IMG/VR virus record: IMGVR_UViG_3300044984_001357
Location: 1 to 45,522 of that record
DNA length: 45,522 bases
Reading direction: 5' to 3' (one strand)
From: a virus
Part shown: one piece after another, positions 22,812 to 43,728 of the stretch
Position numbering within the stretch: the first letter of the stretch is position 1
How the letters are laid out: the number at the start of each line of letters is the position of its first letter
Program-made: the position numbers and the translations under genes
Notes under the pieces: model-generated
What the model saw: only the letters and a program-made list of their open reading frames with translations
The model's database searches: none
Told to the model about the DNA's origin: nothing

Positions 22812-22818
22812 TAAAACA

Positions 22819-25800: not shown

Positions 25801-28800
25801 AATCTAACAAATCTTCCTGGACCTCAACCTCTATTTGCTGCTTCAGAACTCAATCAGTTAATCCGTAATGAGCTAGCTAACAGATCTGTACTTACAGAAC
25901 TTCAAGCCATAGAGCAAGGTGCTACTAACTTAAACATCCCTGATGTTAAGAAGGAGCAGGAACTTGACATGGCTTTAGCAGAACTTAGTGAGGATGAATT
26001 GTCAAAAGGTTTTGTTGAAGAAACAGCCCACCCAGAATGGTCGCCTGTTGTACGTGCAGTAGTTGCAGGTATGCTAGAAGGTCATATGGCCGAGAAGACA
26101 GACACCGGTAAAGAAACTGACCTTCAGAAAAAGAGGAAAGGAATAATTACTAACTTCTACGGAGTAAGTTTAGCAGAAACTGATCCCGCAAAGAAGATTG
26201 CTCAGATAAACAAAGGTATCAGAGACTTAGCTAAAACTAATCCTGGACGTAAAGACTTTGGTGGTCGTAGACCTGCTGCTCCAGTACTTCAAAGAGACGA
26301 AAACTTCCGAGGATTATCTGCGGTAAACCAAATAGTATTTGATGAGTTCACAGGATACCGTAATAGCTTTGAAGCAATTATTAGGAATACTGACCTAGAC
26401 GAGTCTACTATAAAAGAAGAGATGGCAGCATTCTCAGTAGTAATTGTACGGGCATTATCTGCCTTAACTACTTTTGAGGATTTGTATAGTGCATTGTCTG
26501 GGCTTTATCCATCATCAAACTTAGCCTTTAGTAAGTTCTTTCAAGAAGCAGCTGAAGGTAATTTTGATATTTCTACCCTAGATGGTTTAGGTTTATCTCC
26601 AACTATGGTTAGTAAGATCTTTTACTTAGCAAAACTTGCTAGTCCTGCTATGACTCCATTTGAGAAGCTTGAGAATTACTTACAAAACTTCTATGCTATT
26701 GAAACGTTTGAGCAGTTAGATGCTTTTGACCAAGCAAGTCATCCAGAAGATCCAGACAGACGTTTCATTAATGCCAAGATGGTTAGAGCCAAACGTAGAG
26801 AGATTCAGAATCGTTTAAGCATTGATCTTAAGACTAACAAGAACTTTACTCCAGTTAAGATAGGTAACAAAACATATTTCTATCAGCTTGTAACTCTTCC
26901 TAATAACAAACAAGAATTACGTATTATCAACCCTAGCAATAATAAAGTTGTTAAGCGTGGTAAAGTAGTAGACTTTATCTTTAGTCAGTTAATTTCTTCT
27001 GGTCAGATATTCGACCTGCATAATTTTGATTATGCAATGAGTGAGTCTGAAAGCATTAGATATGCTACAGTAGATTCACAGTCTGATTTCTTAGTAGACG
27101 ATTTCTTAGGTAAGATAGGTGGAGTTTTCCTTAGTAAAGCTTCTTTGGATATGTTAGCATCTGGTGACAATCCTACAGCGTTTAACTTATCTCCTTATGT
27201 ATCTACAAAGAGAAAAGAAGGTGGTGTATCTATTAAAACATTAGAAGACTTAGCCAGTGAATCTGAGATGCTTAGAGAAGCAGGGTTAACTATAGATGAC
27301 ATTATTGATTTCTTACAACGCCACAGAGCCCAGAAGTATGTTCCTAGAGTAGGTAAAGCATCTGCCGATAACATTATCCGTGCAGAGGTACTTGGAACCT
27401 TTGAGGTTGTTATTAGCAATGATGTTGTACGTCAGTTAGTTTCTGCCTATAGTGCTCGTTTTACAATAGACCCCCTATCAAATACTATTATAGACTTAAA
27501 CAACTTGCCTTTTGAATTACGTAATGACTTAGTAGAAGCCATGCGTGAGCGTAACAAAGGCACTATGTTTGAACAATTCATTCCTAGTTCAGATGCAGAT
27601 ATAAATTTTTATGACCCAATTATGCTTGGTATGATTGGTGATGTACTTGATACTCCAGCATTTAGAAATGCTTTAGACCCACAATACTTACAATATTTAG
27701 ATGAATTTTATGAAGACGCAACAAACACAATCTACCCCCTTAGTACCTACGAAGACATTAGCGGATTATTTTCGGAGGAAACTAATGATGTCAACACAGA
27801 CCAAGAAGTAGATGATCCTTATGGTGAGGTTATTGACGCTGCTCAAAAGACCTTTCAGATAGAAGTAAATAATGACTTTCAGATTAGCTTATCAATAGTT
27901 GATACTAATATATTTGACAAGTCTCTCTTAGGTGACCCTGCGGTAAGTTTTGCTTACCGAGTACTTCACCAATACCGTGAAACTGGAATGGCCGGACAAG
28001 ACTACAATGTATTAGTAGCTTCTATGATGGACATTTACAGACTAGTGTTAACTGCGGAAGACTACGAGTACTTAGTTAGTGTTAGGAACAGTCCTAAAGG
28101 TACTCCTGTAGATGGAGCAAGAATCAGAAAGATTCTTAGTACAGAGGGACTTCCTATGCACAACGAAGGATTCTTTAACTCTATTATTAAAAACCCTTCA
28201 ACAATTGGTACCGGTGTAGGTTCTGTATTTGTAAATAGCGATAAACAGATTCTTAAATTCAATCAAGCAGGTGTAGTATCTAGCGAGGGTTCTCCCTTGA
28301 TTAGTACTCTGAAAAAGAATACTCCCGCAGCACTTGCCTTAAGAGAAAAGATTACTAGCTCTCCTGGCCAAGTATTGTTTACTAAAATAGTAGGACTTAG
28401 GTCAGGTAAAGAAACAATTTCAGACGTAAGTAAAACTGTAGGCACTATTGTCTTAAACACAGAGGAGAGTGATCGTGTTATCACTAGTGCTTTTGGTAAG
28501 TATACCTTGTTTAAGGGGGGTGTATATATTCAAAACGATAACTCTGTTTATCCATTCCAAGCGGTTATTTTGCCAACTGCTCCTGACGGATTTGTTTCTG
28601 CCTTAGTAGATGCCTTTAATAACGGTACACTACCGGCTGGATTACCTACTGAATTATCGGAGAACCCTAAAGCATTTGTAGATTATGTTAATGCTTTGAT
28701 TTACTTATCTCCGAAGAATAACGGAGGTTTGATTTTAGGTAGTACTGTTAAAGGTAAAGTAGTTTACAAAGCCAAAAACAAATCAGGTAAATACCAACAG

Positions 28801-31800
28801 ATTACAGGTAAGGCTGACGTACAAGCAAAGCGAGTAGCAGAAGCTTTTGTAAACATCCGCTACAACGTAAGTAAAGATAATCTAGACTTAAATGGTCCTT
28901 TCTCTTTAATTAAAATGATGGGAAATCAGTTGGCTGTAATACCTTCTGATACCTACCAAGATATGCTTAAGAGCGATGAGTTTGGTGCTAAGGTTACTAC
29001 AACTGTAAACCAAACCTTTGCCTTAGATAACGAGTACACCGTTCATACAGAAGATACACTTCTTCCAGAACAAGTAAATGCTGATGTAACTATGCATCCA
29101 ACTGCAGATACTGTTCTTGCTGCGGATGAACTTGATAGTATAGACGATGATGACATTGACTACGATTCTATCTTCGGTGATATTAATCCTGATGATGTAC
29201 TAGAGCGTTCTTTGCTTTTGCAAAACAGTATCTCTGAGCAAGAAAACAATGCTGCTCAGTTATGGGTAGAGAATAGTCCTATCTTCAAGGGTACTAAGTT
29301 TATCTTTGATCGGACCATAGCACACCCTACTGCTTATGCAGTTTGGTCTAAGGCCGGTGTGTTCTTATTTGAGGGTGCGAACTATGCAGAAGGTTATCAC
29401 GAAGCATGGCATGAATTCTCTCAGTACTATCTTACTAGAGAACAGAAAGATTCTTTGTATGCACAGGCTAGAAAAATCTACGGGGATTTAAGCTTAGTAG
29501 AATTAGAAGAGAAACTTGCAGAAGACTTTAGACAGTTTGCTTTATCTAATGGTAAGGTATTCCCTGAAGGAATCAAAGCCAACAAAGAAGCTAAGGGTGT
29601 GTTCCAAAAAATCTGGGACTTCATTACCAACTTTGTTTCTGATAAGAAGACAGTTGATTATTACTTTGGTCAACTATACAAAGGTCAGATTAGTAGTTAC
29701 ACTCGTAACGAAGACCAGGCTTACTTCAAAGAACTTAACAGTAGCAAACTTGTAGTCAACCTAGCTGATGGAACTAAGAAAGCATTTAGCTTTAAGGAAG
29801 GTGATGAGATTCTAAATCAGTTTGACTCTCTATTTGTGAGCATGGCTAACCGTTTGGTGTCTCAACTTAAGGGTTCAGTTGTTAACGTACTTGACAACAA
29901 AGCGTACATAATCCGTACTTATAAAGCTATGGATGGTGCTATACAGTTGGCACAAGCTAAGTACGACCAGTTAGTTTTAGAAAACCCTACTCCACTAAGA
30001 CTTGCTCGTAAAGAGTATCTTGATATGTTAGTAGGCAATCGCCAAACATTATTCTTGTTCCACAAAGCAGCTTCTAGTTTGTTCTCAGATAAAGTTAAGC
30101 AAGCAATCAACGATGAAGTAGTAGATGCTACTTTGATGGATGACATGCCTGCCTTTGCTCAGTTTGAAAATGCTGTAAATGAGCAGTCTCAAAAACTTAA
30201 AGCAGCTCCTTTAATCATTACTGCTATCAAGAGTTTACCTCAGTATAAGAACAATCTTCCTGTAAAAGATAAAGTCTTTGGAGTAAATAAGATTGGTGAC
30301 TTTGATATTAACTGGAATATCTTACAAAGAACATTATCTGGTACTAACAGTTACCAAGATATGTACAAGAGGATCCAGGATTTGGGAACTCGATATGGTC
30401 AGTTCCGTCAACTTTTGGCTTACTTGCCTAGTCCTTCTGAAACTGACGTAAAGCAAAGTACCTTAAACTTTAAGAACGCTTTCTTCAATACGTTCTCTAT
30501 GCCTTACATTGAGGGTTATACAAATGAGATTATAACTAAAACTGAAGATGGTGAAACTAAAGTAACGCATGCTATTTACAAAGCACAGTCTTTAGATTCT
30601 AAAAACCTACGTCGTGCTTGGGATAATGAATTCTATGTTACTGATGGTTTCTATAAGAACCTTGACGGTGAAACCGGTAGTTACTACTTAAACGTTGACA
30701 AGTACTTTGAGGACTACCCAATTGTACCTGATGAGCCTACCTTTACTACTGAAGAAGCTAAACTTAATTACCAGGAGTCTTTGTATGCTATGCTTACTCC
30801 TCTAGGCTTTAACTTTACTGAGTTGGGTAAAGAGGCTTTGTTTACTATGCCGGTAAAGGATTTCCGTAGACAAGTAGAGCGTATCCACAAGAAGATTATA
30901 TCTCTTAGTGAAACAGAAAGATACATCTTTACTCCTCTAACTCGTATATCTGATCAGCATGTTAACTCTGAAGATGAAGTTGTTTTCTCTGAGCAGACTG
31001 CTTTACTAGAACTTATTCAGTTTGAAGTACAAGCTAATGTAGAGTATGTAAATGACATGCAATACAATGCACTGGGTAAAAAAGTATGGTCTGTGAATCC
31101 ACATACTTACATGACTAGGGTTCTTTCTATAATGAATGACTCTGCCTTGTATCCTACTTTAGATGATGTGTATAAAGAGTTGCCTCAGTTAGATCCTTCT
31201 AAGAATCCAGCTGCTTCTTTCTCTGCCGTACTTAAGTACATGTTTAACGCAGCCGGTGGTAGGAGGTTAAACCCTGACAACTCTACTAGAACATTTGAGA
31301 TTGCCAACTTGTTGGGAGTCAAAGAAGGTTTTGACGGAGAAAAAACTATTGATGTTGTAACTCCTGTCAAACACTACTCAGATGTTATGGGCTTACTATC
31401 TGCCGGTATTGAAGAAGTTAACCGTTTCTCAGGCAAAAACACTACTCGTGGAGTAGTATATGACGATAGATTCCGTTATGAGTTAGGAATGAAATCTGCT
31501 TTTTCTTTTGGCAATCGCATAGTAATTCCAGAAGCAGTAATTACAAATAGTATCTTACCAATACTTTTTGGTGAGATCTACACTACTGTTAATCCTTCTA
31601 GTAAGTTTAGAGTGCCTTTGTTTGAGAAAGAAGGTACACCTATCTTATCTTACTTCCAAGATATTCTTAGTTCAGATGTTCGTACTCAGTTGTTTGATAA
31701 GTTTAAGGATGAGTCAGACTTAAGTAACTACACATTGCTTTATGATAAACTATCTCCTGAACTAAAGAATGCAGTAATAACTGAGTTTAGTAAGTACATC

Positions 31801-34800
31801 TTTGATAATATTAAAGCAAGTAATGCTTTCTTCCAGGGTGTTTACAGTGTTCCATTTGAAGATTTGGCAAAGTACCATGTACTAAGCTTTATCTCTCGAG
31901 TAGAACAACATAAATTATTCTACGGACACCCTTACTACTATAAAAATGCTAAGGAGATTGAAAAGCGTATCAGTGCTTGGAATGCTTATGGTAGTTATGC
32001 AGTACTAGACCAACAAAACTTAGAGTCTATTAAGGACGCATACACACAACGTGATGCTTTCTTGCACCATAACTCAAAAAGTGATGCTCCAGTAGATGTT
32101 GCTACTGATATGAGCCGAGACTTGTCTAAGATTTCTTACATAGTACTTAAGGATACTGCTGTATCTTCTGAGACAGCTAACAATAGTGATGCTTACAAGA
32201 AAGTAGCGGGTAAAAAGAACGGTAAGAATGTTACTTTAAAAGAGTACTACAACGATAAAGGCTCCAAACGACATGATGCAGCCGCATTCTGTACTATGGA
32301 CTTCTACAAACGCTTCTACAAATTGTCTACAGGTGTTACTGAAGCAATGCGTAAAGAGTTTGATAGACAAGATAGAATCTACGCTTTGCTTCTTCAGAAA
32401 CAATCAGGTGTAGACAACCAAGAGCAGTTAGACAAAGTACTTAACGAAGGTCCTTACTACACATTTAACATTAAGAAACTTCAGTACGCAGGTCACGCAG
32501 CTATCCAATCTGGTGAGAGTGTGCCTGTATTCCACAAGTATTCTGTAAAGCCTATTCTTCCTTCTGAGTTAGTTACTAGTCCAGAGTTAGCACAGATTCT
32601 TGCAAAACTGCATGCTTCAGGTGCTGACTACGCTGTAGTTTCTTCAGGTACAAAGATTGCAGAGACTATTGACCCAGTTAGTTTATTTAACGAGGACGGT
32701 AGCATAGATACTAATTTTGTTCCTACTGGCTCTATCGATATGAGATACCTTAAAGAACAGGTATTGGTAGAGAACAAGGAAACTTTCATGAGTATCTTTA
32801 GTAGTCAGTTTAGAAAACTTGCTTACAAAGATTCTCAGAAGAGTGAGCTTTACGAAGCCTACAGAAAGTACGTTGATGAGTTAGTATCTTTAGATAAGAT
32901 TAACTTTGTTTCTAAACTAGAAGATCAAGAGAAGTTAGTAGAGTATTTATTGCAGGAACTTTCTAAGAAGAATGTAGCTGAGGCAACTAAAGACTTAATT
33001 AGACTTAAAGAGAACGGAGAACTTCAACATACTTTAGATGCTATGATTGATCGTACTGTTATGGAGAGTGCTATTGTAGCTTCTGTAACAAACGATATCT
33101 TAAAGCAGAAAGTACCAGGTGCTCAACGAGTTCAGTATCCTGCATCATTGATTAGGCCGGGAAGAAAACTAGCTTACTACGATCTAGTAACTAATGCTGA
33201 CAATAAAAAAGTCATCAAACAAGCTGAGGCTATAATCTCTTTTTCTAAAGGATATTATCCTTTGCTAAACTTAGTTTACAACGGTGAAGTAATAGGTGAG
33301 TTTGATGTAAAAGGTAAGCCTGTCAATATGTCAAGTGCCTTGCGAAAACTTAACGAGGCATTAAATAATCCTATCTTCTTAGAGACTAACTCAACTATCT
33401 TAGATAAAGCTTTAAGTATTGCTGCTATCCGTGTGCCGGGTCAGGATTACAACTCAATGGAAAGTTTCCGCATCGTTGAGTTCTTACCCCAAGAGTCTGG
33501 AGAGATTATCTTGGTACCAGACGAAATGGTTATTAAGTCAGGTTCGGATTATGATATTGATAAATTATTCTGTTACGATCCTTTCATTGAATTGGATGGT
33601 AGTGTGTTGGGTAATAACCTAACACCTGAACAAGCTTACCAAGCAACACAGTCTGCTAAAGAAGAGTTAGAGGCTATCAGAGCCACTAAGAAATCTTTAT
33701 CTAAAGGTATCAATGCTATTCGTAAGCGTATTCAGGAAGTAGTAACTATTGCAGGATTTGATGCAGATAACACACAACTTAAAGACTTGTACAAAATGTA
33801 CACAGACTTTAATGCTGAACAAGAGGTAGAAGACAGACCTATTGCTCCAGAAGATGTAGCTAGACTTGCTAACTTTTTTAAAGAGCCCTACGAGGTTAAA
33901 AAGAAAGAAACTAATACAGAGATTAAAAAGATTCTAAATGCTCTTAGAACAGCTAAGAATGAAGGTCTGAGCAATTCTTTGTTTGCTTTGAATGAACAGT
34001 TGTATGCTTTGCTTGACCGTGAGAGATTCTTGACTCATGAAGTTAAAGCTATTCGTGGTCGTTTCTCTAATAACTTACTCTCTAATTTAATAGAGCGTTT
34101 GAGTGATCCGTCTTTGTTTACTTTGTTACTACGTCCAAACAGTTCAGATACTATTACAGAGATGGCAGAGATGTTTGGTGAGTCAAATAAATATACTACT
34201 GCTTCTTACACAAACGTTGTTAATGCTATCTATCAGTTGTATGTACACCAATTAAATGCTTATAAGAAATCTTTGGGTGTAGATGCAAAATCTAACGTCT
34301 TGCATGCAATTCTTCAGAAGGCTGCTTTATTTGTAATTGATAAACAAGCAGTACTAGACTACCCATTAGATGCTAATGGTAAATCAACAGGTGTGCTAGA
34401 CTTTACTTCTAGCTTTGATGTAGAGTACAACAAAACTAAAGGTAAGAAAGGAACTCGTATCGGAGATATTAGTGGTCAGTTAATTACTGCTCACGTAGAT
34501 ATTGAAAGAGACGATAGCATTGCTCAAATCTTCCTTAACAATAAACTTACTCCAACTGCCAATTACATGAATATGTTAGGTAGTAGGTTCCAGGATATTG
34601 TGAAGATGATTAACCTACCTTACAAAGGTTTTGATGGTACTAAGAATAGATCTTCTATTATTAGGTATGCAAAAGGTAGTGCTAAGTATTCTTCTAAGCG
34701 TGCCTTTGTGCAAGCTATTTTAATGGAAAAATTAAATGAAGCTTTTGCTAGGGCTGAGCAAACAGGACAGGAATTACCAAAGTATGCTGAGTTCTTAAAT

Positions 34801-36750
34801 GGTTCTATGAATGAGTTCGGTAATGAGATTATGTTGAACTCGCTTAAGAAGAAACTTAACAATTACCGTAGTGAAAACCCAGACGCATTACTTACAGATG
34901 AGACTGAGATGGGTGATTTGCTACGTTTTGTTGGTTGGATTGTTACCGAGGCACAGCAAGATAAACTATTCATACTTTCTTCTAATACAGACTACGATAC
35001 CTTTACTCCTCAGAACTTTGAGTCTTTCCGTAAGGGTGGGCAAGAATTGGCTGATTTGGTTAAGTCTAACTTCTTTAACAGGCAAGGTATTCAGAATGTA
35101 ATATTTGAATCTGTAATCTCTCCTTTCCAACTTCAACAAGACATCTTTGATAAATTAGAGACTATATTCCCTATCTCAGCGAATAAAACATTAACTACTC
35201 TTATCATCAGACTTCACAGAAGTATGAAGGCTCTTAACTACAGATTAGAGTATGATACCTTCTCAAGAGTATTTAAGAATGACTTGCTCTACTCTTTGTT
35301 TAGAAATAACATTCCCCAAGTAGCTGAGTATGAAAAGCTTCTTGACAAACGTAATCCTGCTCACATCAGTACTCTGTACAACAACCTTAAAGTAAGATTG
35401 GGACAAAGAGGCATTCAGTCTGATAACTTAATCTTTGATGGCGTAATATTTACTACCAATGAAAACAGTCAGTTTATCCGAGCCGGTTATGTGCAGTCAG
35501 AGATTGACTACTCAGTAGACATGCTTCGTGAAGACTTTAGCAATGGATTGAATTGGTCTCATCCTAGTCTAGACCCAACTAACGAGGATGACCAAAGGCT
35601 TGCTCAAGACATGCAGTCATTCTTCACTGCTTATGCTTATGCAGGTCTTATAGGTACCAACTTGAATAAACGTTACGATTCATACTTGCCTTTGATTCCT
35701 GAGCAGATTTACACCTTGCCTATGTCTTCTATCATTTCCCAGTTTACTAGTGGCTTGGCTGACAATATCCAAACCATTACAGATGCTTTGGTTGCGGACT
35801 ATAATGCTAAGGAGAACAAAGAATTATCAGAAACTCTTAAAGAGAGTATAGTAACTACTAGCGAAGAACGTAGCGGGGTTATTAATAATGTATTGTCTGA
35901 GCAGATGGATACTTTACTAGATTCTCTTGGGGATTCTCACATAGCTAAGTTTGTTCGTAGATTCAAGCAAGTACACCCAGAGTTTAGTCGTACTAAAGAT
36001 CCTAACATAGACTTGTTCTATTTCAAGGACTACGACTTTACTAGAGATAGTATCACACCTAGCAGTAAAGTGCTTCAGTCTAGTTTGACTACTCGTAACG
36101 ATAATCCAAACCGTGAGTACACTCCTAAGGAAGTTTTAGAACTTCAGCCTAACGAAGTATTTGTATTTGGTGCTAACACAGCCGGTCACCACGGCTCAGG
36201 CAGTGCAGGATACGCTCAGTATAAAAACGCTAAATCTAACTACAATGTATTAGAGCCTGGAACTGTAGGTTACTGGTCTGAGTATGGAGTTACTGACCGT
36301 ATTATGCAAGGTACAAACGGTATGTCTTATGGAGTTGTAACTAAGTTAGGAACAATCAAAGACGGTAGAGTCAAGATAGGTTCTAAGAATAGTATTCGTT
36401 TAAGTGCTGTGGAAGAGTCAGTTGTGAAGATGTTGGAGACTGCTTCTGCTAATCCTGATTTGAAATTCTTGGTGACTGCTATTGGAATTAAACAGGCTGG
36501 TTGGAATACTCCTCAGATACGTTCAATCTTTGCTAAGCATAATGCTATCATACCTGACAACGTAATCCTTCCTAAGATTTTTGAAGTTAGAGATAGTATT
36601 AAGCCTACTACAGCAGTAGATGAAACTAGTAACACAGTAGTGCTTGTACCTGAGAACTTTGAAGCAATCAAGAAAGAAGCGATTAAGGAAACTTTTAAGG
36701 AACTAGAAGACATCAGTAATAACCACGAAAACTTCTGCGGTGGAGCTTAA
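22819..36750 (+). CDS. Giant virion RNA polymerase fusion protein (4,643 aa)
   Basis: I choose ATG 22819, with A-rich leader and seven bases after the previous stop, over an in-frame ATG at 22780 inside the preceding gene. Domains in order: a helical cargo-like N-terminus; an EF-hand-like loop (residues 424-435); segments rich in small hydrophobic residues near 465-495 and 694-713; a zinc-peptidase motif HEAWH (2194-2198) with a downstream LAEDF; the polymerase region with RVPGQDYNSM (from 3538) and SGSDYDIDKLF, whose DYDID (3577-3581) is the DxDxD catalytic motif binding magnesium in crAss vRNAPs and YonO-type polymerases; and a macro-like domain (about 4435-4610; FVFGANTAGHHGSGSAG). The Cellulophaga phi14:2 vRNAP is about 2,180 residues, so this is a fusion with other ejected proteins. 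It should be packaged, enter with the DNA and transcribe early genes. Confidence 0.93.
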   Translation: MPNDPYKIIPGKPLNTPEFKKAQEIIDSADAGVRATNFVNAVDQIKKFEADKVRLDQTIGNGITDILATKAAIDADPLPSLGDALLVGLQLSGSQGQMYGTPEPYLKSKKELPNYTKDPDIVRASSIYKDRIKNGTPDEIYKAIDDLRKSYDYSNGSIKEGDRASFAKSYQDLANYGKSVAMYKYVQDNVNKWMSEGSALPKNVTPKGLKSQKTTDKEILDMVAGFDGLTIGSKLYNNVDLQTFRSTSDQELRSTAGSRALVAGLETQYNRAVSEVLRDKSGELSQKLNGLNNEIKQATTDQQRQALITQKLQLQQAATNIDDLSKKMNVFANEDNYLKANYKDLYEEKQNLKRREYYKNEIDPNETSFSDVGEFFSRSGEMVGSNLVRTFSGIESLTGFNKAAFFTGLSADRLAPLSYRMGKDLNKNHLIDESELTRDINGNTITHDSPVYTDAKGERQWNGEAIFEQVLPILTDIAITTLVSRGAGGLARMAPMGALRWSNIGKTVGLTAEAMQTARPYLSTFGSVTASTFPRFYAEERGNFKEGGAAGTAFLRAAAEGLTESILPDTDLFLGSKGGLGLFDSAFKKGASYLGTKADDLTGGYIGKLNTKLNAQTDLMLSMLPKGMVDRKVMAALLAPGLRRTLSAGTQESIEEVASLVANHFIDKYAATQNFEYEQNNELTMGSIWETFVTSLGPSAIIGGGTAFGRRAMKEAKDSEGNSIRNSDGSAKYVTDWSTSALAYERANTARWNVANSPELYKKIIAQKKESGEYTPEEAIKQTAVVARMSQKLTEMMPSIKNIKNLNTMLDDSNARVEYFNNKMFAEELLNVNIDDLSDEDRKSYEDSVNNTANKLEKTDRIIDQYASMTENDKRAVIKKLYDDKVTEAKSENTTIPELLLASYLVDPSDLEGRKKDDRFRFIASLNEEYQGELLNTLAKRVAGFKDTLLNSPENLTVRELLAMSDVFVPVLDKLEQANMAVPFSPLTQTQENANLTNLPGPQPLFAASELNQLIRNELANRSVLTELQAIEQGATNLNIPDVKKEQELDMALAELSEDELSKGFVEETAHPEWSPVVRAVVAGMLEGHMAEKTDTGKETDLQKKRKGIITNFYGVSLAETDPAKKIAQINKGIRDLAKTNPGRKDFGGRRPAAPVLQRDENFRGLSAVNQIVFDEFTGYRNSFEAIIRNTDLDESTIKEEMAAFSVVIVRALSALTTFEDLYSALSGLYPSSNLAFSKFFQEAAEGNFDISTLDGLGLSPTMVSKIFYLAKLASPAMTPFEKLENYLQNFYAIETFEQLDAFDQASHPEDPDRRFINAKMVRAKRREIQNRLSIDLKTNKNFTPVKIGNKTYFYQLVTLPNNKQELRIINPSNNKVVKRGKVVDFIFSQLISSGQIFDLHNFDYAMSESESIRYATVDSQSDFLVDDFLGKIGGVFLSKASLDMLASGDNPTAFNLSPYVSTKRKEGGVSIKTLEDLASESEMLREAGLTIDDIIDFLQRHRAQKYVPRVGKASADNIIRAEVLGTFEVVISNDVVRQLVSAYSARFTIDPLSNTIIDLNNLPFELRNDLVEAMRERNKGTMFEQFIPSSDADINFYDPIMLGMIGDVLDTPAFRNALDPQYLQYLDEFYEDATNTIYPLSTYEDISGLFSEETNDVNTDQEVDDPYGEVIDAAQKTFQIEVNNDFQISLSIVDTNIFDKSLLGDPAVSFAYRVLHQYRETGMAGQDYNVLVASMMDIYRLVLTAEDYEYLVSVRNSPKGTPVDGARIRKILSTEGLPMHNEGFFNSIIKNPSTIGTGVGSVFVNSDKQILKFNQAGVVSSEGSPLISTLKKNTPAALALREKITSSPGQVLFTKIVGLRSGKETISDVSKTVGTIVLNTEESDRVITSAFGKYTLFKGGVYIQNDNSVYPFQAVILPTAPDGFVSALVDAFNNGTLPAGLPTELSENPKAFVDYVNALIYLSPKNNGGLILGSTVKGKVVYKAKNKSGKYQQITGKADVQAKRVAEAFVNIRYNVSKDNLDLNGPFSLIKMMGNQLAVIPSDTYQDMLKSDEFGAKVTTTVNQTFALDNEYTVHTEDTLLPEQVNADVTMHPTADTVLAADELDSIDDDDIDYDSIFGDINPDDVLERSLLLQNSISEQENNAAQLWVENSPIFKGTKFIFDRTIAHPTAYAVWSKAGVFLFEGANYAEGYHEAWHEFSQYYLTREQKDSLYAQARKIYGDLSLVELEEKLAEDFRQFALSNGKVFPEGIKANKEAKGVFQKIWDFITNFVSDKKTVDYYFGQLYKGQISSYTRNEDQAYFKELNSSKLVVNLADGTKKAFSFKEGDEILNQFDSLFVSMANRLVSQLKGSVVNVLDNKAYIIRTYKAMDGAIQLAQAKYDQLVLENPTPLRLARKEYLDMLVGNRQTLFLFHKAASSLFSDKVKQAINDEVVDATLMDDMPAFAQFENAVNEQSQKLKAAPLIITAIKSLPQYKNNLPVKDKVFGVNKIGDFDINWNILQRTLSGTNSYQDMYKRIQDLGTRYGQFRQLLAYLPSPSETDVKQSTLNFKNAFFNTFSMPYIEGYTNEIITKTEDGETKVTHAIYKAQSLDSKNLRRAWDNEFYVTDGFYKNLDGETGSYYLNVDKYFEDYPIVPDEPTFTTEEAKLNYQESLYAMLTPLGFNFTELGKEALFTMPVKDFRRQVERIHKKIISLSETERYIFTPLTRISDQHVNSEDEVVFSEQTALLELIQFEVQANVEYVNDMQYNALGKKVWSVNPHTYMTRVLSIMNDSALYPTLDDVYKELPQLDPSKNPAASFSAVLKYMFNAAGGRRLNPDNSTRTFEIANLLGVKEGFDGEKTIDVVTPVKHYSDVMGLLSAGIEEVNRFSGKNTTRGVVYDDRFRYELGMKSAFSFGNRIVIPEAVITNSILPILFGEIYTTVNPSSKFRVPLFEKEGTPILSYFQDILSSDVRTQLFDKFKDESDLSNYTLLYDKLSPELKNAVITEFSKYIFDNIKASNAFFQGVYSVPFEDLAKYHVLSFISRVEQHKLFYGHPYYYKNAKEIEKRISAWNAYGSYAVLDQQNLESIKDAYTQRDAFLHHNSKSDAPVDVATDMSRDLSKISYIVLKDTAVSSETANNSDAYKKVAGKKNGKNVTLKEYYNDKGSKRHDAAAFCTMDFYKRFYKLSTGVTEAMRKEFDRQDRIYALLLQKQSGVDNQEQLDKVLNEGPYYTFNIKKLQYAGHAAIQSGESVPVFHKYSVKPILPSELVTSPELAQILAKLHASGADYAVVSSGTKIAETIDPVSLFNEDGSIDTNFVPTGSIDMRYLKEQVLVENKETFMSIFSSQFRKLAYKDSQKSELYEAYRKYVDELVSLDKINFVSKLEDQEKLVEYLLQELSKKNVAEATKDLIRLKENGELQHTLDAMIDRTVMESAIVASVTNDILKQKVPGAQRVQYPASLIRPGRKLAYYDLVTNADNKKVIKQAEAIISFSKGYYPLLNLVYNGEVIGEFDVKGKPVNMSSALRKLNEALNNPIFLETNSTILDKALSIAAIRVPGQDYNSMESFRIVEFLPQESGEIILVPDEMVIKSGSDYDIDKLFCYDPFIELDGSVLGNNLTPEQAYQATQSAKEELEAIRATKKSLSKGINAIRKRIQEVVTIAGFDADNTQLKDLYKMYTDFNAEQEVEDRPIAPEDVARLANFFKEPYEVKKKETNTEIKKILNALRTAKNEGLSNSLFALNEQLYALLDRERFLTHEVKAIRGRFSNNLLSNLIERLSDPSLFTLLLRPNSSDTITEMAEMFGESNKYTTASYTNVVNAIYQLYVHQLNAYKKSLGVDAKSNVLHAILQKAALFVIDKQAVLDYPLDANGKSTGVLDFTSSFDVEYNKTKGKKGTRIGDISGQLITAHVDIERDDSIAQIFLNNKLTPTANYMNMLGSRFQDIVKMINLPYKGFDGTKNRSSIIRYAKGSAKYSSKRAFVQAILMEKLNEAFARAEQTGQELPKYAEFLNGSMNEFGNEIMLNSLKKKLNNYRSENPDALLTDETEMGDLLRFVGWIVTEAQQDKLFILSSNTDYDTFTPQNFESFRKGGQELADLVKSNFFNRQGIQNVIFESVISPFQLQQDIFDKLETIFPISANKTLTTLIIRLHRSMKALNYRLEYDTFSRVFKNDLLYSLFRNNIPQVAEYEKLLDKRNPAHISTLYNNLKVRLGQRGIQSDNLIFDGVIFTTNENSQFIRAGYVQSEIDYSVDMLREDFSNGLNWSHPSLDPTNEDDQRLAQDMQSFFTAYAYAGLIGTNLNKRYDSYLPLIPEQIYTLPMSSIISQFTSGLADNIQTITDALVADYNAKENKELSETLKESIVTTSEERSGVINNVLSEQMDTLLDSLGDSHIAKFVRRFKQVHPEFSRTKDPNIDLFYFKDYDFTRDSITPSSKVLQSSLTTRNDNPNREYTPKEVLELQPNEVFVFGANTAGHHGSGSAGYAQYKNAKSNYNVLEPGTVGYWSEYGVTDRIMQGTNGMSYGVVTKLGTIKDGRVKIGSKNSIRLSAVEESVVKMLETASANPDLKFLVTAIGIKQAGWNTPQIRSIFAKHNAIIPDNVILPKIFEVRDSIKPTTAVDETSNTVVLVPENFEAIKKEAIKETFKELEDISNNHENFCGGA

Positions 36751-36754
36751 TTGA

Positions 36755-36784
36755 TTGTGTAATTTTATTATTAAACTATATTTG
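36755..36784 (+). promoter_or_regulatory. Bacteroidota-type promoter before the second giant gene
   Basis: TTG (36755-36757), 19 bases, TATATTTG (36777-36784). It begins five bases after the vRNAP stop and ends five bases before ATG 36790, so a transcript from it would have almost no leader. Confidence 0.82.
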
Positions 36785-36789
36785 TAAAG

Positions 36790-39700
36790 ATGATTTGTCC
36801 TAATTTAAATGACCCGGAGGTAAAAGCTAAGTTTGACCAACTACTTAGTGTAGTACCTGAATATGCTTATTACCTCTGGGATAAGTATGAGGGAGAAGTT
36901 CCTGCTAAGTACTATAACTTGGTAGGGGCTACTGGCTTAGTTGCAGGTGAAGTTGCAAAAGGGGTACAAGAATTATTTGCCTCTAATCCTGAATTAAACG
37001 GAGTGGGAACACCTCAACAATACAGTGCATACTTAGATACTATATTTCCTGGTAGTACTGTAAAGGATATTGTTTATCATGGCGTAGTAGGGGGTAAAGC
37101 AAGTTATGACAATATTTTAAAAAATGGATTTGACTTTAAATCACAAAGAAATTGGGATAACGAGAATTCAAAATTTAAAGAAGACGATAATACTGGCATG
37201 TTTTTTTCCAATTATGCTACAGCTATTTTGTACGGAGAAGACGTTGAGTATAAGTTAAATGATAAGGGTGAATATAAAAAGGTAAATTACAAAAATATTG
37301 TACCTGCTATTTTAAACATAAAATACTTAGACAGTTCACAAGAAACAGCTTCTGACACTGCGGCTGCTTTTTATAAGCAGAACAAAAGTAAAGAAGCAAT
37401 TGGTATGCTTGGACCAGAAGGAGGGTCTGAGGGTGTTAGTTTAAATTATGTAGTATTTGAACCAGAACAAATTCATATATTAGGAAACAAACAAGACATA
37501 GCAGGATTTAAAAAGTTTGTAGCTACTTCTACTATGCCTACTCGTATGTCTACTACTATGTATAGTAAGGTTGCTTTAGATGACATTAAGAACCATTACT
37601 TAAGACTAGAGGTAAACTTAAAGTTAGCACAAGATTTACTTAACGACCCTGAGTACAATAAATTGGGCACTTACGGAGGTAAGATTGCTTATGTGGGTAA
37701 TAAGATGTGGCAGGCTGAGATTCAAAAGATCCAAGACCGACCATCAATTACTTTAATGGGTAATAGAATTTACCATACAAGTACTAAGTACGTAGAGCCT
37801 CACCAGATTCTTAAGTATGCAGAAACAACTGCTCTTAGGATTAACAGTAAGTATCTTATCAATGGTGGCAAGAAGATTGCTTGGGCAAGATTTGATGAGT
37901 CAGGTGTTTACGTAGAGTTTGATCCTCGTTACAATTACGCTACAGAGATTATTGATTTTGTAGAATCTATAGAAGAGGAAGAGATGCGTGCAGAAGTCGA
38001 GCTACTTGTATTGCAAGAAGCACTAGATGCTGAACAGCATGCTCTAATGGAAAAGCTAATCCAGTCAAACGAATTACTGATTGACGGGGAGGTTTTACCA
38101 TTAAGTAACATTATGTTCCAAAAGAGCATGGAGTTAGCTAATGTTCTTAAGAGAGGTAACGTAAGTAAATTTGGTCAAATCTTTGATAAGTTAGTAGCTA
38201 AGTTTCCAGGTGTAACTTGGACATGGGATACAACCATTGATGGGGCTGCCCGTGTAGATTTAGCAACCGGACAAATATTAGTTAATCCTTATTTAGTAAG
38301 AGAAGATACTCCTTGGCATGAGTTCTCTCACTTTATTGTTAGGGGTTTAAAGATATCTAATCCAGAAGCCTTTAGTAAGTTAGTAGAAGAGGTAGAAAAA
38401 TTGCATGAAGAGAATCCTACAGGATCATCTTACAGTTATGTAGAGGCTAATTACCCTGAGTTAAAAGGCACAGAAGAGTTCTACGAAGAGGTGATTGCTA
38501 CTGAGATTGGTTCTCAAGCAACTGACTACACTCCAAAGACAGGTCTTTACAATACCATTGTAGAGTTCTTTACAAATATCTTAACTGATTTAGGATTTGT
38601 TAGTCCTAAGTTTGATACGCTGAATGACATTGTAGTAGCATTATATAATCCTAACTTCGAGTTTCAGTTTTATCCAACTAACTCTGAAGTGTCTGCTTAC
38701 ATGTTTAGTAGGGTTATGCCTGAGCAAGTAGATGCATTTACCCAACACTTGATGACGGATCCATCCAATCCAGATGATTTTAGTCCGGCAATCAGACAGA
38801 TTCAATTAATATCTGATGCAATCACTGACCAAGAGTTTGCACGTTTGATGGATACCAATAAGTACTTTACTAGTGAGGAGATTAGAAAATCAACTTCTCT
38901 TAGACAAGCCGGTGCTGTATTCGAGTCCTCTAAGGGTCGGATAAAAGCTATGGCTACTAAAGAAGACGTAGCAGAAGCCGTGTTGGATTTAGCAAACTAC
39001 ATGCAGTATATGTCAATCTACTTTCAGGGATTGATAGATCACTTGCAGACAATTAGCCAAGACCCTAACATACCTCCTGGAAAAAAGCTAGGCGATATAC
39101 ACAGGGCTTACAAACAAGCATTAGTTGTACAAAGACACATAGAAGAAATTACCGGAGATAGATTTAATAACCAAGGAGCATTAGCTAGAAGTGTATTTAA
39201 ACCTAACACAGTTTCATCTATTGTACAATTAGCACAAACTTCTTCTAAGCAAGAAGTAAACAGTAATCCTTTCTTAAAGAACTTGTTCTGGTTGAAGCAG
39301 TCGCTTAACTCTATTGTTGAGAAGCACAACCAATACATTCAAGAACCTATCCTAGATGAGCTTTCTGAGTACTACGAAGAAGCTACTAAAGGATTGGCTG
39401 AGACTATTAATAAAGACATTGAGCAATTGGACTCTCAGTTGTCTAAGAAATCTTTTGATATAGTAGGTCAAGCAAACAAGAATAATGCAGATCGTACTTA
39501 TCGAAACCGTATTGTACGGACTATCAGTAAAGTAGGTAACGCAGCAGATTCTAAGTTTGTAGTAACTTATACGGATGGAGCTGTTCAAGAGTTTACAAAC
39601 TTCAGACAGTTTAAGCAGTCTTTTGACTTACCTATATCTGTAGGTAACCTCTTAAATAGAATTCAAGATAGTAAAGACGACTACACCAACAAGCTTCCTA

Positions 39701-42700
39701 CACGGGAAAACTTGTCTAAGTTACTTATGGATACTAATAGTGAGTTGTTTGCTGCGTTTGACACAGCCACTACCACTAAGAATCCAGGCATACAACTTGT
39801 AGCGAGTTACTTAAAAGGTATGGATATCTCGCATAGAGGTTCCTTGGCTAGTTTACGTGGTGAGATGGAAAGCTTAATGCAAGACATCATAGCTGAAGAA
39901 GGTGCACAGTTTGGAGGTTCTATTGTAGACGTTAAAAACTTCTACAAACCATATTACCGAGAGGCTTTCTTGTATGAAGTAGTTGATGGAGTACTAAATA
40001 AAGATAAACGTATCTTAGTTTTAAATACTGCTACCAAAACGGTAGAGATGCGTAACTATATGACTGAACAGAACTTTATTATCCAACATGGTATGGATGA
40101 TGTATCTGATTTAGATCCTACTGATATGAGTGCTGCGGCCGTTGCTAGACGTAGTGCAGCAGAACAAAGTGTAAATGAGGCAATTGAAAATCTTGAAAAG
40201 TTCAAAGAGCAGTATACTGAGCGTCCATTTACTGAAAAGTATTATGAGATTCAAAGTACACTACCTTTAGAAATCCGTAATAAGCGAAACAGTATCTATC
40301 AAGAGATGGCTGCTGTTAGAGAAGCATTTGTGGGTGGGGAGATTACGGAAGAAGCGTTTGAGTTACTTCGTCTAAATCAATCTGAGTTAGATGAGATGGA
40401 ATCTCTTTACGACTCCTTAGGTAATCTTAAACAAGGAGATGCTTATGATACTGCGAAAGCAATCATTGATTGGAAGAACGCAAAGTCTAATACAGAAATT
40501 CCTCAGATGGATGCCAATGGTAATCCTCTACTGGATGCTACGGGTCAACCTATTGTAAAGATAGTACCAACTACTGTTTACCCCAAACTATCTGATGAGA
40601 CCTTAAACGTATTCACCAGGACACTTGCCTCTCGTAAACAAAAGTTACAAGCAGCTCTTATTGCTTCTGAGAATCAATACAGGTCTGCACAGAATGAAGG
40701 CGGAAAACAGTTGGCTCTTAAACTTAAACAAGATGCTCTTGATGAGTACAATCGTTGGGCTTCTATCTATACCCGTACTACTTACTCTCAATCGTTTTAT
40801 GATGAGCGTGCCTTAATTACTGATGAAATTCAACAGTTACTAGGTGATAGGGGTGATAACTTGAATGACCTGTATGAGAACTTGTTTAACTTACTTAAAG
40901 GCAAGAAAGACCGTAATGGTGAGTACATGCCTAATGAAGTTAGTGATGGTCAACGTCAAACAGCTAAAGAATTAGAGGAACGTATTGAAGATATTAAGTA
41001 TCTTACCCGTAAGAACTCTCCACTAGATAAAGATACTAAGGAAGCACTAGTATTATTAGTTGAACAGTTACAGAATTTACAGAGTAATGTAAACTCAAAA
41101 GCTTATGAAAAGACCGTAGAGGATATAAAAGCAAGTTTGCGTACTCAGATAGCTACAGCTAATCCTACGTTAGATAGTGCTTCTATTGAAAGACTTGTAA
41201 GCCAAGCATTCAAACAATCTGCATGGCACTCAGATAACCACATCAAAAAAGTAAGATATGACTCTGAAAGAGGAGAAACTGTCCTTGTAGAAGAACCTAT
41301 CTTTATGTGGAGAGTAACTAGACCTAACGATGAATCTTACATTGAAGAAGAAGCTCCGTCATTCTTATGGTTTAGTCCTAAAGTAAGTACAGAGTTTCAG
41401 AATCCTAATCATGTATTAGGCGAGACTACTTTCAAGGAGACTACATCAGGTGCTTATTATAATTCTAGTTACGATGCTTTAAGAGGCAATCAGAAGGTTT
41501 TGCTTGGTCGTATGCGTGATGCATTGACAAACGCACAATCTGAACTTTATAAGAAAGATAAACTAGGTGACATTATTCCTGGTATCTACAAGACCAAAGG
41601 TGAGTTGTTTATTGATTTAATTAGTCGTGGCAGACCTAACCCGTTAAAGCGTTGGTGGAACCAACAAAAGGAATGGTTGCTAGGTGAAACACGCCAAGCA
41701 TTGGGTGATGAGGATGAAACATTTGGTATTGCAGAACAAACTGATGCTTTTGGAGAACCTATTACTAGGGAGTCTCGTAAGTTATTTGTAAGATATAGTC
41801 GTCCTATGGCTGCAGAAGAACAGTCTTATGATATTATGACTGCGATTGCTTCTTACTCAGCATCTGCTGCTAGGTTTAGAACTCACCGTAAGTATCAATC
41901 TACTATCCTGGCAATGGAAGAATTGCTTAGTGGTAGGAAAGCGCCTAGTTCTTTGCTAAACAAACAAGGTTCTTCTACTAATAAAGTAGTTGGAGACTTG
42001 ATTGATCGCCAGTTATATGGTAAAGGAGTAAATAACCCTAAGAACACCTTTGCTAAAATAGCTAATGGTATTTTACATGGTGCAGGTAGACTTGCAGGTG
42101 CTAAGAGTTTGCGCTTTAACCCTATCTCTTTGTTTCCTAACTACTTTAACGGCTATAAGAATAACTTGGCAGACCGTAGATTCTACGACCTAAGCTACAG
42201 CGATTACTTGGCTGCGTATAAAGAGACTATGGGATTATCTCTAGACTTTATTACTGGTCATGCTCAGACAGGTAACAAGCCTTTGCGTATGCAGATTATT
42301 GACTTCTTCGGAGGAACTCAGTCTAACTACGAGCAAGAGTTTAAGGAATTATCTAATAAAGGATTTTTCAAGTATTCTAAGTTTCATAAGTTTGTCTCTA
42401 ACCTAAGAGAGTACACTGAATACGATATTGCTGCACAGACAACTTTTGCTATGCTGAACAAGTATCGTGTACCACTAACTACCGGTGGAGAGATTAAACT
42501 TAAAGATGCATTTCATTTAGTAAACGGAGTAGTCTCTATCAAACCAGATGTAGATGTTTCTCCTCAGTTGCTTCGTAAGATTAAAGATGAAATTTCTACT
42601 GCTAACTACAGAGCACAGGGTGTATACGATAGCATCGGTCAGCCTACAGTAGCTAAGTATGCATTAGTAAGACAACTTTTATTCTTAAAGAAATGGCTTC

Positions 42701-43728
42701 CTATGCATGCTAAGACAGAGTGGGGGGTAGGAAACATTCACTATGGTGCCGGTGTTAGAACTGTAGGTGCTAATTTAGCTATGATGCGTTTTCTTCAGCA
42801 GACTTTCTTTGAGTATGGAAGATTCTGGGAAGCAAGCAAAAACTTAACTCAAGCAGAGAAAGCAGCCTTAGCTAAGTTTAGATTTAACTTCTTTGCTTAC
42901 GTAACTTTAGGTAATATTATTAGTCAGATGGCTTTATCTCTTGAGTGTGAAGATGACGGAGAAGCTGACTGGAAAGACTACACCTGTTTCTTGACTAAGA
43001 AAATAGCCAACGAAGCTGAAGGTGTATTTACTCTTTGGGGTATGAATGAGATGCTGTTTACTTACGTACAAGAGCAAGCAAACGGAACAAGTTTCTTTGA
43101 GAAGTTAGGTTGGTCTCTGTTTGGTCCATTCAGTGTATTCAGAAAGTTTGTAGATTGGGATAGCGGATTGTATAGTACAGATCCTTATTACAAGTATCGA
43201 CCAAACTCTGATAAGATTGATTGGGATAAAACACACCCAACTCAAGCAGGTAAACCTGGTTTAGGTGTACTTGCTATGGAAATGTTAGGAGCTAAAGGTG
43301 TTATGTTAGGATTAGATGCTAAGTCTATTGAGTTCCAAAACAGAGCATTCAATAGTTATACTCCTAAAACTTACACAAAAGAATTACGTACTCGCTACCT
43401 TGAAAACCACGATGGTCTTGAAACTATGAAGACTCGTACAGAAGAAGCCCAAGCTAAAAAACAATATAAGAAACAGCTTAAGCAACTTCAGAAGAGAGTA
43501 TCTGCATTTGAAACTGCGGGTGAACAGGTTCCCCAAGAAGTTTACGAACAGATGGAAGCATTAAATAGTAACTACTCTATAAGAGTAAGTGAAATCCAAG
43601 CAGGACGTGAGCCTAATAAAGTATTTACAGGAGTAAAACCTTTCTATAAGGCAAGACCAGGATTAGATTTAGAGGAACAAGAAATACCACAAAAGGTAGA
43701 GCCTGTGAATTTGGATGATTCTGACTAA
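36790..43728 (+). CDS. Giant ejected-type protein with ADP-ribosyltransferase-like and metallopeptidase motifs (2,312 aa)
   Basis: The protein opens with CPNLNDPEVKAKFDQL and AYYLWDKYEGEVP, a start I recall from many large Bacteroidota phage proteins, which supports ATG 36790. Residues about 74-245 resemble the ADP-ribosyltransferase domain of polyvalent phage proteins: DIVYHG with His97, GMFFSNYATAILYGED (136-151), and the closing VVFEPEQIHILGNKQDIAGF (221-240). HEFSH at 510-514 is a zinc-peptidase HExxH motif with YEEVIATEIG downstream as possible third ligand. The long middle is helical and coiled-coil rich. The C-terminal third (around LRFNPISLFPNYFNGYKN and a hydrophobic helix near 2030-2065) resembles membrane-active ejection proteins, and the end is a charged helix. 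By position it matches the large virion proteins that follow the vRNAP in crAss phages. Catalytic activities are inferred from motifs only. Confidence 0.85.
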   Translation: MICPNLNDPEVKAKFDQLLSVVPEYAYYLWDKYEGEVPAKYYNLVGATGLVAGEVAKGVQELFASNPELNGVGTPQQYSAYLDTIFPGSTVKDIVYHGVVGGKASYDNILKNGFDFKSQRNWDNENSKFKEDDNTGMFFSNYATAILYGEDVEYKLNDKGEYKKVNYKNIVPAILNIKYLDSSQETASDTAAAFYKQNKSKEAIGMLGPEGGSEGVSLNYVVFEPEQIHILGNKQDIAGFKKFVATSTMPTRMSTTMYSKVALDDIKNHYLRLEVNLKLAQDLLNDPEYNKLGTYGGKIAYVGNKMWQAEIQKIQDRPSITLMGNRIYHTSTKYVEPHQILKYAETTALRINSKYLINGGKKIAWARFDESGVYVEFDPRYNYATEIIDFVESIEEEEMRAEVELLVLQEALDAEQHALMEKLIQSNELLIDGEVLPLSNIMFQKSMELANVLKRGNVSKFGQIFDKLVAKFPGVTWTWDTTIDGAARVDLATGQILVNPYLVREDTPWHEFSHFIVRGLKISNPEAFSKLVEEVEKLHEENPTGSSYSYVEANYPELKGTEEFYEEVIATEIGSQATDYTPKTGLYNTIVEFFTNILTDLGFVSPKFDTLNDIVVALYNPNFEFQFYPTNSEVSAYMFSRVMPEQVDAFTQHLMTDPSNPDDFSPAIRQIQLISDAITDQEFARLMDTNKYFTSEEIRKSTSLRQAGAVFESSKGRIKAMATKEDVAEAVLDLANYMQYMSIYFQGLIDHLQTISQDPNIPPGKKLGDIHRAYKQALVVQRHIEEITGDRFNNQGALARSVFKPNTVSSIVQLAQTSSKQEVNSNPFLKNLFWLKQSLNSIVEKHNQYIQEPILDELSEYYEEATKGLAETINKDIEQLDSQLSKKSFDIVGQANKNNADRTYRNRIVRTISKVGNAADSKFVVTYTDGAVQEFTNFRQFKQSFDLPISVGNLLNRIQDSKDDYTNKLPTRENLSKLLMDTNSELFAAFDTATTTKNPGIQLVASYLKGMDISHRGSLASLRGEMESLMQDIIAEEGAQFGGSIVDVKNFYKPYYREAFLYEVVDGVLNKDKRILVLNTATKTVEMRNYMTEQNFIIQHGMDDVSDLDPTDMSAAAVARRSAAEQSVNEAIENLEKFKEQYTERPFTEKYYEIQSTLPLEIRNKRNSIYQEMAAVREAFVGGEITEEAFELLRLNQSELDEMESLYDSLGNLKQGDAYDTAKAIIDWKNAKSNTEIPQMDANGNPLLDATGQPIVKIVPTTVYPKLSDETLNVFTRTLASRKQKLQAALIASENQYRSAQNEGGKQLALKLKQDALDEYNRWASIYTRTTYSQSFYDERALITDEIQQLLGDRGDNLNDLYENLFNLLKGKKDRNGEYMPNEVSDGQRQTAKELEERIEDIKYLTRKNSPLDKDTKEALVLLVEQLQNLQSNVNSKAYEKTVEDIKASLRTQIATANPTLDSASIERLVSQAFKQSAWHSDNHIKKVRYDSERGETVLVEEPIFMWRVTRPNDESYIEEEAPSFLWFSPKVSTEFQNPNHVLGETTFKETTSGAYYNSSYDALRGNQKVLLGRMRDALTNAQSELYKKDKLGDIIPGIYKTKGELFIDLISRGRPNPLKRWWNQQKEWLLGETRQALGDEDETFGIAEQTDAFGEPITRESRKLFVRYSRPMAAEEQSYDIMTAIASYSASAARFRTHRKYQSTILAMEELLSGRKAPSSLLNKQGSSTNKVVGDLIDRQLYGKGVNNPKNTFAKIANGILHGAGRLAGAKSLRFNPISLFPNYFNGYKNNLADRRFYDLSYSDYLAAYKETMGLSLDFITGHAQTGNKPLRMQIIDFFGGTQSNYEQEFKELSNKGFFKYSKFHKFVSNLREYTEYDIAAQTTFAMLNKYRVPLTTGGEIKLKDAFHLVNGVVSIKPDVDVSPQLLRKIKDEISTANYRAQGVYDSIGQPTVAKYALVRQLLFLKKWLPMHAKTEWGVGNIHYGAGVRTVGANLAMMRFLQQTFFEYGRFWEASKNLTQAEKAALAKFRFNFFAYVTLGNIISQMALSLECEDDGEADWKDYTCFLTKKIANEAEGVFTLWGMNEMLFTYVQEQANGTSFFEKLGWSLFGPFSVFRKFVDWDSGLYSTDPYYKYRPNSDKIDWDKTHPTQAGKPGLGVLAMEMLGAKGVMLGLDAKSIEFQNRAFNSYTPKTYTKELRTRYLENHDGLETMKTRTEEAQAKKQYKKQLKQLQKRVSAFETAGEQVPQEVYEQMEALNSNYSIRVSEIQAGREPNKVFTGVKPFYKARPGLDLEEQEIPQKVEPVNLDDSD

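Follow-up and report, generated by a model that had tools for sequence, protein, structure and literature searches.

Polymorphic toxins such as Rhs and CdiA consist of a conserved carrier with swappable C-terminal effector domains that sit behind a conserved border. The polyvalent proteins that Iyer et al. (2017; PMC5512222) described from phages and conjugative elements are multidomain proteins predicted to be delivered together with the genome; they carry ADP-ribosyltransferase (ART), GNAT and zincin-type domains, include the family ART-PolyVal (PF18760) with an H-Y-D active site, and place ARTs beside, and fused to, N4-like virion RNA polymerases. Virions of phiCrAss001 contain the RNA polymerase (RNAP)-associated cargo proteins gp47, gp49 and gp50, as determined by mass spectrometry (PMC10172136), and among enzymes acting on ADP-ribose, DarG has a catalytic lysine (Lys80), without a TARG1-type aspartate, that is needed for removal of ADP-ribose from DNA (PMC5179494, PMC9411070). 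Here we analyzed the 45,522-base IMG/VR record IMGVR_UViG_3300044984_001357 (the whole stretch, referred to as the window), in which a macro-fold domain ends one giant protein, P0001, and an ART-like domain lies near the start of the next, P0002. With a probability of about 0.65, we read these as two accessory ADP-ribose-related domains on consecutive virion cargo proteins, of which the ART would be an exchangeable injected-effector cassette and the macro domain would serve in counter-defence. The original prediction, made from the DNA alone, had tentatively joined the two domains into an unusual takeover module of writer and reader or eraser; a swappable injected-effector slot is better supported than such a module.

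The source of the record is a crAss-like phage, as had been proposed. P0001, a virion RNA polymerase (vRNAP) fusion, carries a D[FY]DID motif, matches in phage collections fell on crAss-like phages (e.g., PhiCrAssBcn and Kehishuvirus), and P0001 aligned with the putative RNA polymerase of PhiCrAssBcn19 (2e-12), so that it combines the D[FY]DxD motif and the homology that define Crassvirales virion RNAPs. P0002 aligned with the RNA-polymerase subunit of PhiCrAssBcn19 (2e-6), the gene of which lies directly downstream of the RNAP gene, an order that is the same in the window and resembles the adjacent polymerase and subunit genes of phiCrAss001 (gp49/gp50; PMC10172136). The PhiCrAssBcn19 counterparts differ in that neither starts with the N-terminal segment found on P0002, and P0001 and P0002 are far longer. 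Given this homology and gene order with the PhiCrAss RNAP and subunit, whose phiCrAss001 counterparts occur in virions, we reasonably infer that P0001 and P0002 are virion cargo and probably enter the host cell with the phage DNA, and the earlier proposal of joint delivery gains support from homology in this way. The features of the two proteins on which the argument rests are as follows.

22780..36750, plus strand: P0001, giant vRNAP fusion protein of 4656 aa, GTG start as listed, recognized by its D[FY]DID-type motif and the PhiCrAssBcn19 alignment
33538..33564, plus strand: vRNAP catalytic motif SGSDYDIDK, D[FY]DID-type, P0001 residues 3587-3595
36790..43728, plus strand: P0002, second giant protein of 2312 aa, corresponding by homology and gene order to the crAss RNA-polymerase subunit that adjoins the RNAP
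36790..36921, plus strand: conserved N-terminal segment, P0002 residues 1-44, MICPNLNDPEV...PAKYYNL, which starts many such open reading frames (ORFs) and some vRNAP ORFs
36922..37548, plus strand: variable cargo slot, P0002 residues 45-253, holding the ART cassette here, recognized from 11 orthologues
37006..37080, plus strand: left conserved border GTPQQYSAYLDTIFPGSTVKDIVYH, ending at the ART motif-1 residue His97, with a border core conserved down to synonymous codons
37069-37482, plus strand: VYHG..GMFFS..FEPEQIHIL, within P0002 residues 94-231
37081..37452, plus strand: interior of the cassette, variable in sequence, containing GMFFS (Phe138) and Asn219, PARP fold
37453..37521, plus strand: right conserved border VFEPEQIHILGNKQDIAGFKKFV, where DNA similarity between unrelated phages ends

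The variable slot of P0002 and its ART-like domain

The slot that follows the N-terminal segment varied in content between phages. Across 11 P0002 orthologues, five kinds of content were found: the slot was empty, or was filled by an ART, by a GNAT-like domain with an ART, by a zincin-like module (carrying an HEVAH motif and DUF4116), or by a zincin-like module with an ART. The position of the ART relative to the polymerase was also regular, since 35 of 43 ART loci sit 2.2-8.5 kb downstream of the vRNAP motif. The N-terminal segment starts many ORFs that follow vRNAPs as well as some vRNAPs, which suggests that it might be a packaging or ejection signal; in a form resembling CPNKNSxEWK..(A)Y.LW it begins the post-vRNAP ORFs of many crAss-like phages (L013, L051, L175, L183 and others). 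An alternative filling of about 700-890 aa, which carries a TWCTSGSMTE motif, matches DUF4116 and has the zincin-like motif HEVAH, was seen in L083 (10880-13009), L168 and L170.

The ART-like domain in the window spans P0002 residues 55-250, with about 450 bases between the macro and ART cores, and the sequence by which it had been noticed was found in place, as was that of the macro domain, both with matches far beyond chance. A scan of IMG/VR with this single sequence returned 113 relatives, from which an alignment of the window domain and 62 distinct relatives was built; short peptides, most of them from the right border, guided the collection, and no match was obtained among 50,697 phage and 72,556 plasmid records. 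The Pfam profile PF18760 ART-PolyVal matched 49 of the 62 relatives (best 3.8e-14) and left the window domain itself unmatched; three relatives tested against the gathering score of 31.2 exceeded it, with 41.2, 47.1 and 41.3 bits and most of the profile covered. The predicted model of the window domain (mean pLDDT 78.5) matched PARPs or tankyrases in all of the top 50 Foldseek hits, with Z up to 8.4. By its predicted structure and its relatives, the domain in P0002 has a PARP fold and is probably of the ART-PolyVal type, in line with the original assignment.

The window ART appears to have a degenerate catalytic triad. The first active-site motif is retained as His97, a position that is His in 58 of the 62 sequences, and the strand-end residues Glu224 and Gln227 are nearly invariant in the family (59/62 and 61/62). 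We take Phe138, in GMFFS, to occupy the position of the PARP tyrosine and Asn219 that of PARP1 Glu988, a fit that uses motif spacing and the PARP1 sequence since no PDB ART chain was found by sequence with the ART profile or with two single members; the Glu988-aligned position is Glu in 24 of the 62. What survives of the earlier comparison with T4 Alt is the idea that an ART is injected and acts as infection begins. As to kind of enzyme, Alt is an R-S-E ART (PMC5512222), and the window domain, with PARP-like fold matches and His instead of Arg as its first motif, was rejected as an Alt-type ART. In the cell, the P0002 ART would most likely modify a host (or competing) macromolecule as infection starts. 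The literature searched yielded no account of a crAss-like phage with an ART. The pairing of an ART with a vRNAP is not unprecedented, because ARTs fused to N4-like virion RNAPs have been described (PMC5512222).

Conserved borders and cassette sharing between unrelated phages

The ART cassette is conserved at its edges and variable within. Over 62 cassettes, mean amino acid identity was 78% in the left border (about 22 residues) and 83% in the right (about 20 residues), as compared to 21% in the interior. At identical degenerate residues the same codon was used at a rate of 0.69 in the borders and 0.44 in the interior, with the catalytic region of the vRNAP as control at 0.42, and the excess in the borders gave a bootstrap difference of 0.23-0.31. 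Interiors were found to be 75-99% identical between phages whose vRNAPs share 24-29%. In ten phage pairs from different samples, the common DNA block opens 26-125 nt ahead of the interior; it stops 59-70 nt past the interior in 9/10 pairs, and a DNA identity of only 79-95% over the block was likewise seen in 9/10 pairs. The pair L025/L062 was excluded from this count since the entire stretches are near-identical and thus represent a single lineage. An independent DNA scan by the left border alone yielded 108 stretches, in 62 of which the canonical right border followed, and many of the remainder have a variant right border or end first. No meaningful direct or inverted repeats flank the cassette in the window. 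Recombination at the borders fits these data. Recombination inside the two borders conserved in DNA would carry the cassette from phage to phage, into the slot directly after the N-terminal segment, and such exchange would allow a phage to lose, gain or change an injected effector while retaining its ejection machinery. One locus, L048 (9995-18729), has the slot split into separate ORFs, with the N-terminal segment, a GNAT-like domain and the left border in one, the ART in another, and a main ORF starting with a right border, an arrangement suggesting that an older ART cassette received an insertion.

The same border pair was also found in GTDB genomes, mainly of Patescibacteria, where it encloses standalone genes of about 190-270 aa (L354-L360, L363-L366), several of them on Patescibacteria contigs of up to 694 kb and some on contigs of chromosome size. 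It is an evenly balanced proposition that crAss-like phages share a pool of ART effectors as plug-in cassettes through the borders beside the vRNAP, as a phage-delivered counterpart of polymorphic toxins, and that this pool reaches Patescibacteria. The likeness to polymorphic toxins, a conserved carrier with an exchangeable effector, is meant as an analogy and not as a claim of family; unlike them, the carrier here is phage virion cargo, with an N-terminal slot and a border on either side of the cassette. From the polyvalent proteins the window differs in its crAss-type RNAP, in the defined slot after an N-terminal segment, and in cassettes with DNA-conserved borders that are common to unrelated phages; no description of this slot and bordered-cassette arrangement was found in the literature searched.

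The macro domain ending P0001

The vRNAP fusion had been predicted to end with a macro-like domain, and both profile and fold comparisons bore this out. Its features are as follows.

36082..36624, plus strand: macro-fold domain of the A1S_2505/PHROG_2072 family, P0001 residues 4435-4615, by AlphaFold model and by profile and fold matches
36160..36195, plus strand: FVFGANTAGHHG, P0001 residues 4461-4472, the sequence by which the domain was first noticed
36160..36210, plus strand: ligand-loop motif FVFGANTAGHHGSGSAG, with N, H, G-x-G and A invariant or nearly so across 63 sequences
36340..36345, plus strand: Thr-Lys pair, aligned with TARG1 Thr83-Lys84

The domain matched PHROG_2072 at 2.6e-20 and the NCBIfam model NF049995 (A1S_2505) at 1.5e-19, the latter with 70.3 bits for a cut-off of 45. 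An AlphaFold model built with a 63-sequence alignment reached a pLDDT of 93.6 and a pTM of 0.88, and the closest solved folds, at Z 10.9, were Mycobacterium tuberculosis DarG (5m3i), TARG1 (4j5r) and TTHA0132 (2dx6), with superpositions of 3.1 Å over 135 residues on 2dx6 and 2.9 Å over 130 on 5m3i. By sequence, the family profile matched TARG1 weakly (E 0.025). The ligand-loop glycines of the G-x-G motif are kept in 60/63 and 63/63 sequences, and Lys4522 of P0001, in the Thr-Lys motif, falls on TARG1 Lys84 (Lys in 55/63). The second member of the TARG1 Lys84/Asp125 dyad is missing, its position being Ala in the window and in 54/63 sequences. Because DarG likewise has the lysine without the aspartate, it is plausible from the model and the residues that the P0001 domain is a lysine-type (DarG/TARG1-like) ADP-ribose hydrolase or binder.

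With DarG and TARG1 (ALC1-like) the window domain thus shares the fold, the ligand loops and the lysine after threonine at the catalytic position; it differs in belonging to the A1S_2505/PHROG_2072 phage family, in an invariant His in its GxHG loop, in being fused to a virion RNAP, and, in this copy, in a 19-residue insertion and an altered GCGLAG loop. The domain would most likely remove ADP-ribose from phage DNA or proteins, or degrade ADP-ribose signals, as counter-defence. Elsewhere the A1S_2505 macro-like family consists mostly of standalone genes of about 130-150 aa in other phages (L097-L165), and no account of it as a phage family was found in the literature searched. AdfB, the anti-DarT factor of ICP1, was considered as a macro-domain precedent and rejected, since it resembles the C-terminus of DarG and not its macrodomain (PMC11481870).

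Competing explanations and significance

The explanation closest to the original prediction is that the ART modifies host RNAP and the macro domain limits or reverses the modification, the two forming one functional unit. Macro and ART are indeed adjacent in the window and at other crAss-like loci (L003, L009, L017, L018, L051, L158), but the relatives of the window argue otherwise. Four related contigs with a macro domain 86-88% identical to that of P0001 keep P0002 residues 1-44 nearly unchanged, and at the ART position one is empty, two have an unrelated insert of about 700 aa, and one has that insert followed by an ART, so that the macro domain persists both without the ART, in L085, and with other content in its place, in L083. 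Among the best 80 loci collected by vRNAP alone, some of them incomplete stretches, macro and ART occurred together in one lineage, a rate not above chance (Fisher p 0.18; p 0.48 once a duplicate is collapsed), and the macro domain was visible in the stretch at 7 of 65 distinct ART loci. The macro domain varies independently of the ART, the expectation that related phages would keep both did not hold, and a conserved, obligatory writer/eraser module is weakened to the point of being improbable. A catalytically dead ART, acting as a binder or decoy (e.g., for NAD, ADP-ribose or a host protein), is a more serious alternative, although we consider it unlikely: it would account for Phe138 and Asn219 in place of Tyr and Glu and for a Glu988-aligned position that is Glu in a minority of the family, but not for the retained His97 and the almost invariant Glu224 and Gln227, and active mono-ARTs of the PARP family also show substitutions at the third position.

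Two further explanations concern the borders. They could be conserved for protein reasons only (folding, virion docking or cleavage), with ordinary horizontal transfer of domains and no border-guided recombination. Helices within the borders run past the Pfam ART match, and the standalone Patescibacterial proteins retain them, as this would predict; the synonymous-codon sharing, which exceeds both the interior and the vRNAP control, and the end of common DNA at the borders in ten pairs speak against it and leave it somewhat less probable than a dead ART. That the mosaics are metagenome assembly chimeras joined at conserved borders is very improbable: all contigs are assembled, with borders alike enough to mislead assembly, but the two contigs of each pair derive from separate samples, their blocks match at the DNA identities given above and not perfectly in 9/10 pairs, and cassette-free, differently filled and ART-filled slots all lie in intact ORFs. 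Against the exchangeable effector cassette with an accessory counter-defence macro domain, which we prefer, several points nevertheless weigh. With neither the customary Tyr nor a Glu of the PARP1 type, the window ART may not transfer ADP-ribose, and its own sequence gave nothing convincing in Pfam, PHROGs or NCBIfam. The macro loop reads IGIKQAGW in the window, which is unusual next to the family's GCGLAGY. The end of a conserved border is necessarily also the end of a BLAST block, which places breakpoints no more finely than within the borders; a role for the borders at the protein level too is likely, standalone Patescibacterial proteins retain the same borders without the slot, and every relative is a metagenomic contig.

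As an exchangeable effector position, the slot marks where crAss-like and related environmental phages would vary their first-strike effectors, and the borders together with the N-terminal segment provide a sequence handle for gathering many candidate injected enzymes. It becomes testable whether early ADP-ribosylation and its removal shape crAss-like infection, and the A1S_2505 family, widespread in phages and without a functional name, gains a prediction, that of a DarG-like lysine macrodomain in counter-defence. A PADLOC run returned no match. Both giant proteins also contain HEF-type zincin-like motifs, AWHEFSQ in P0001 (29404-29424) and WHEFSHF in P0002 (38314-38334), which are possibly self-cleaving proteases, as has been proposed for polyvalent proteins.

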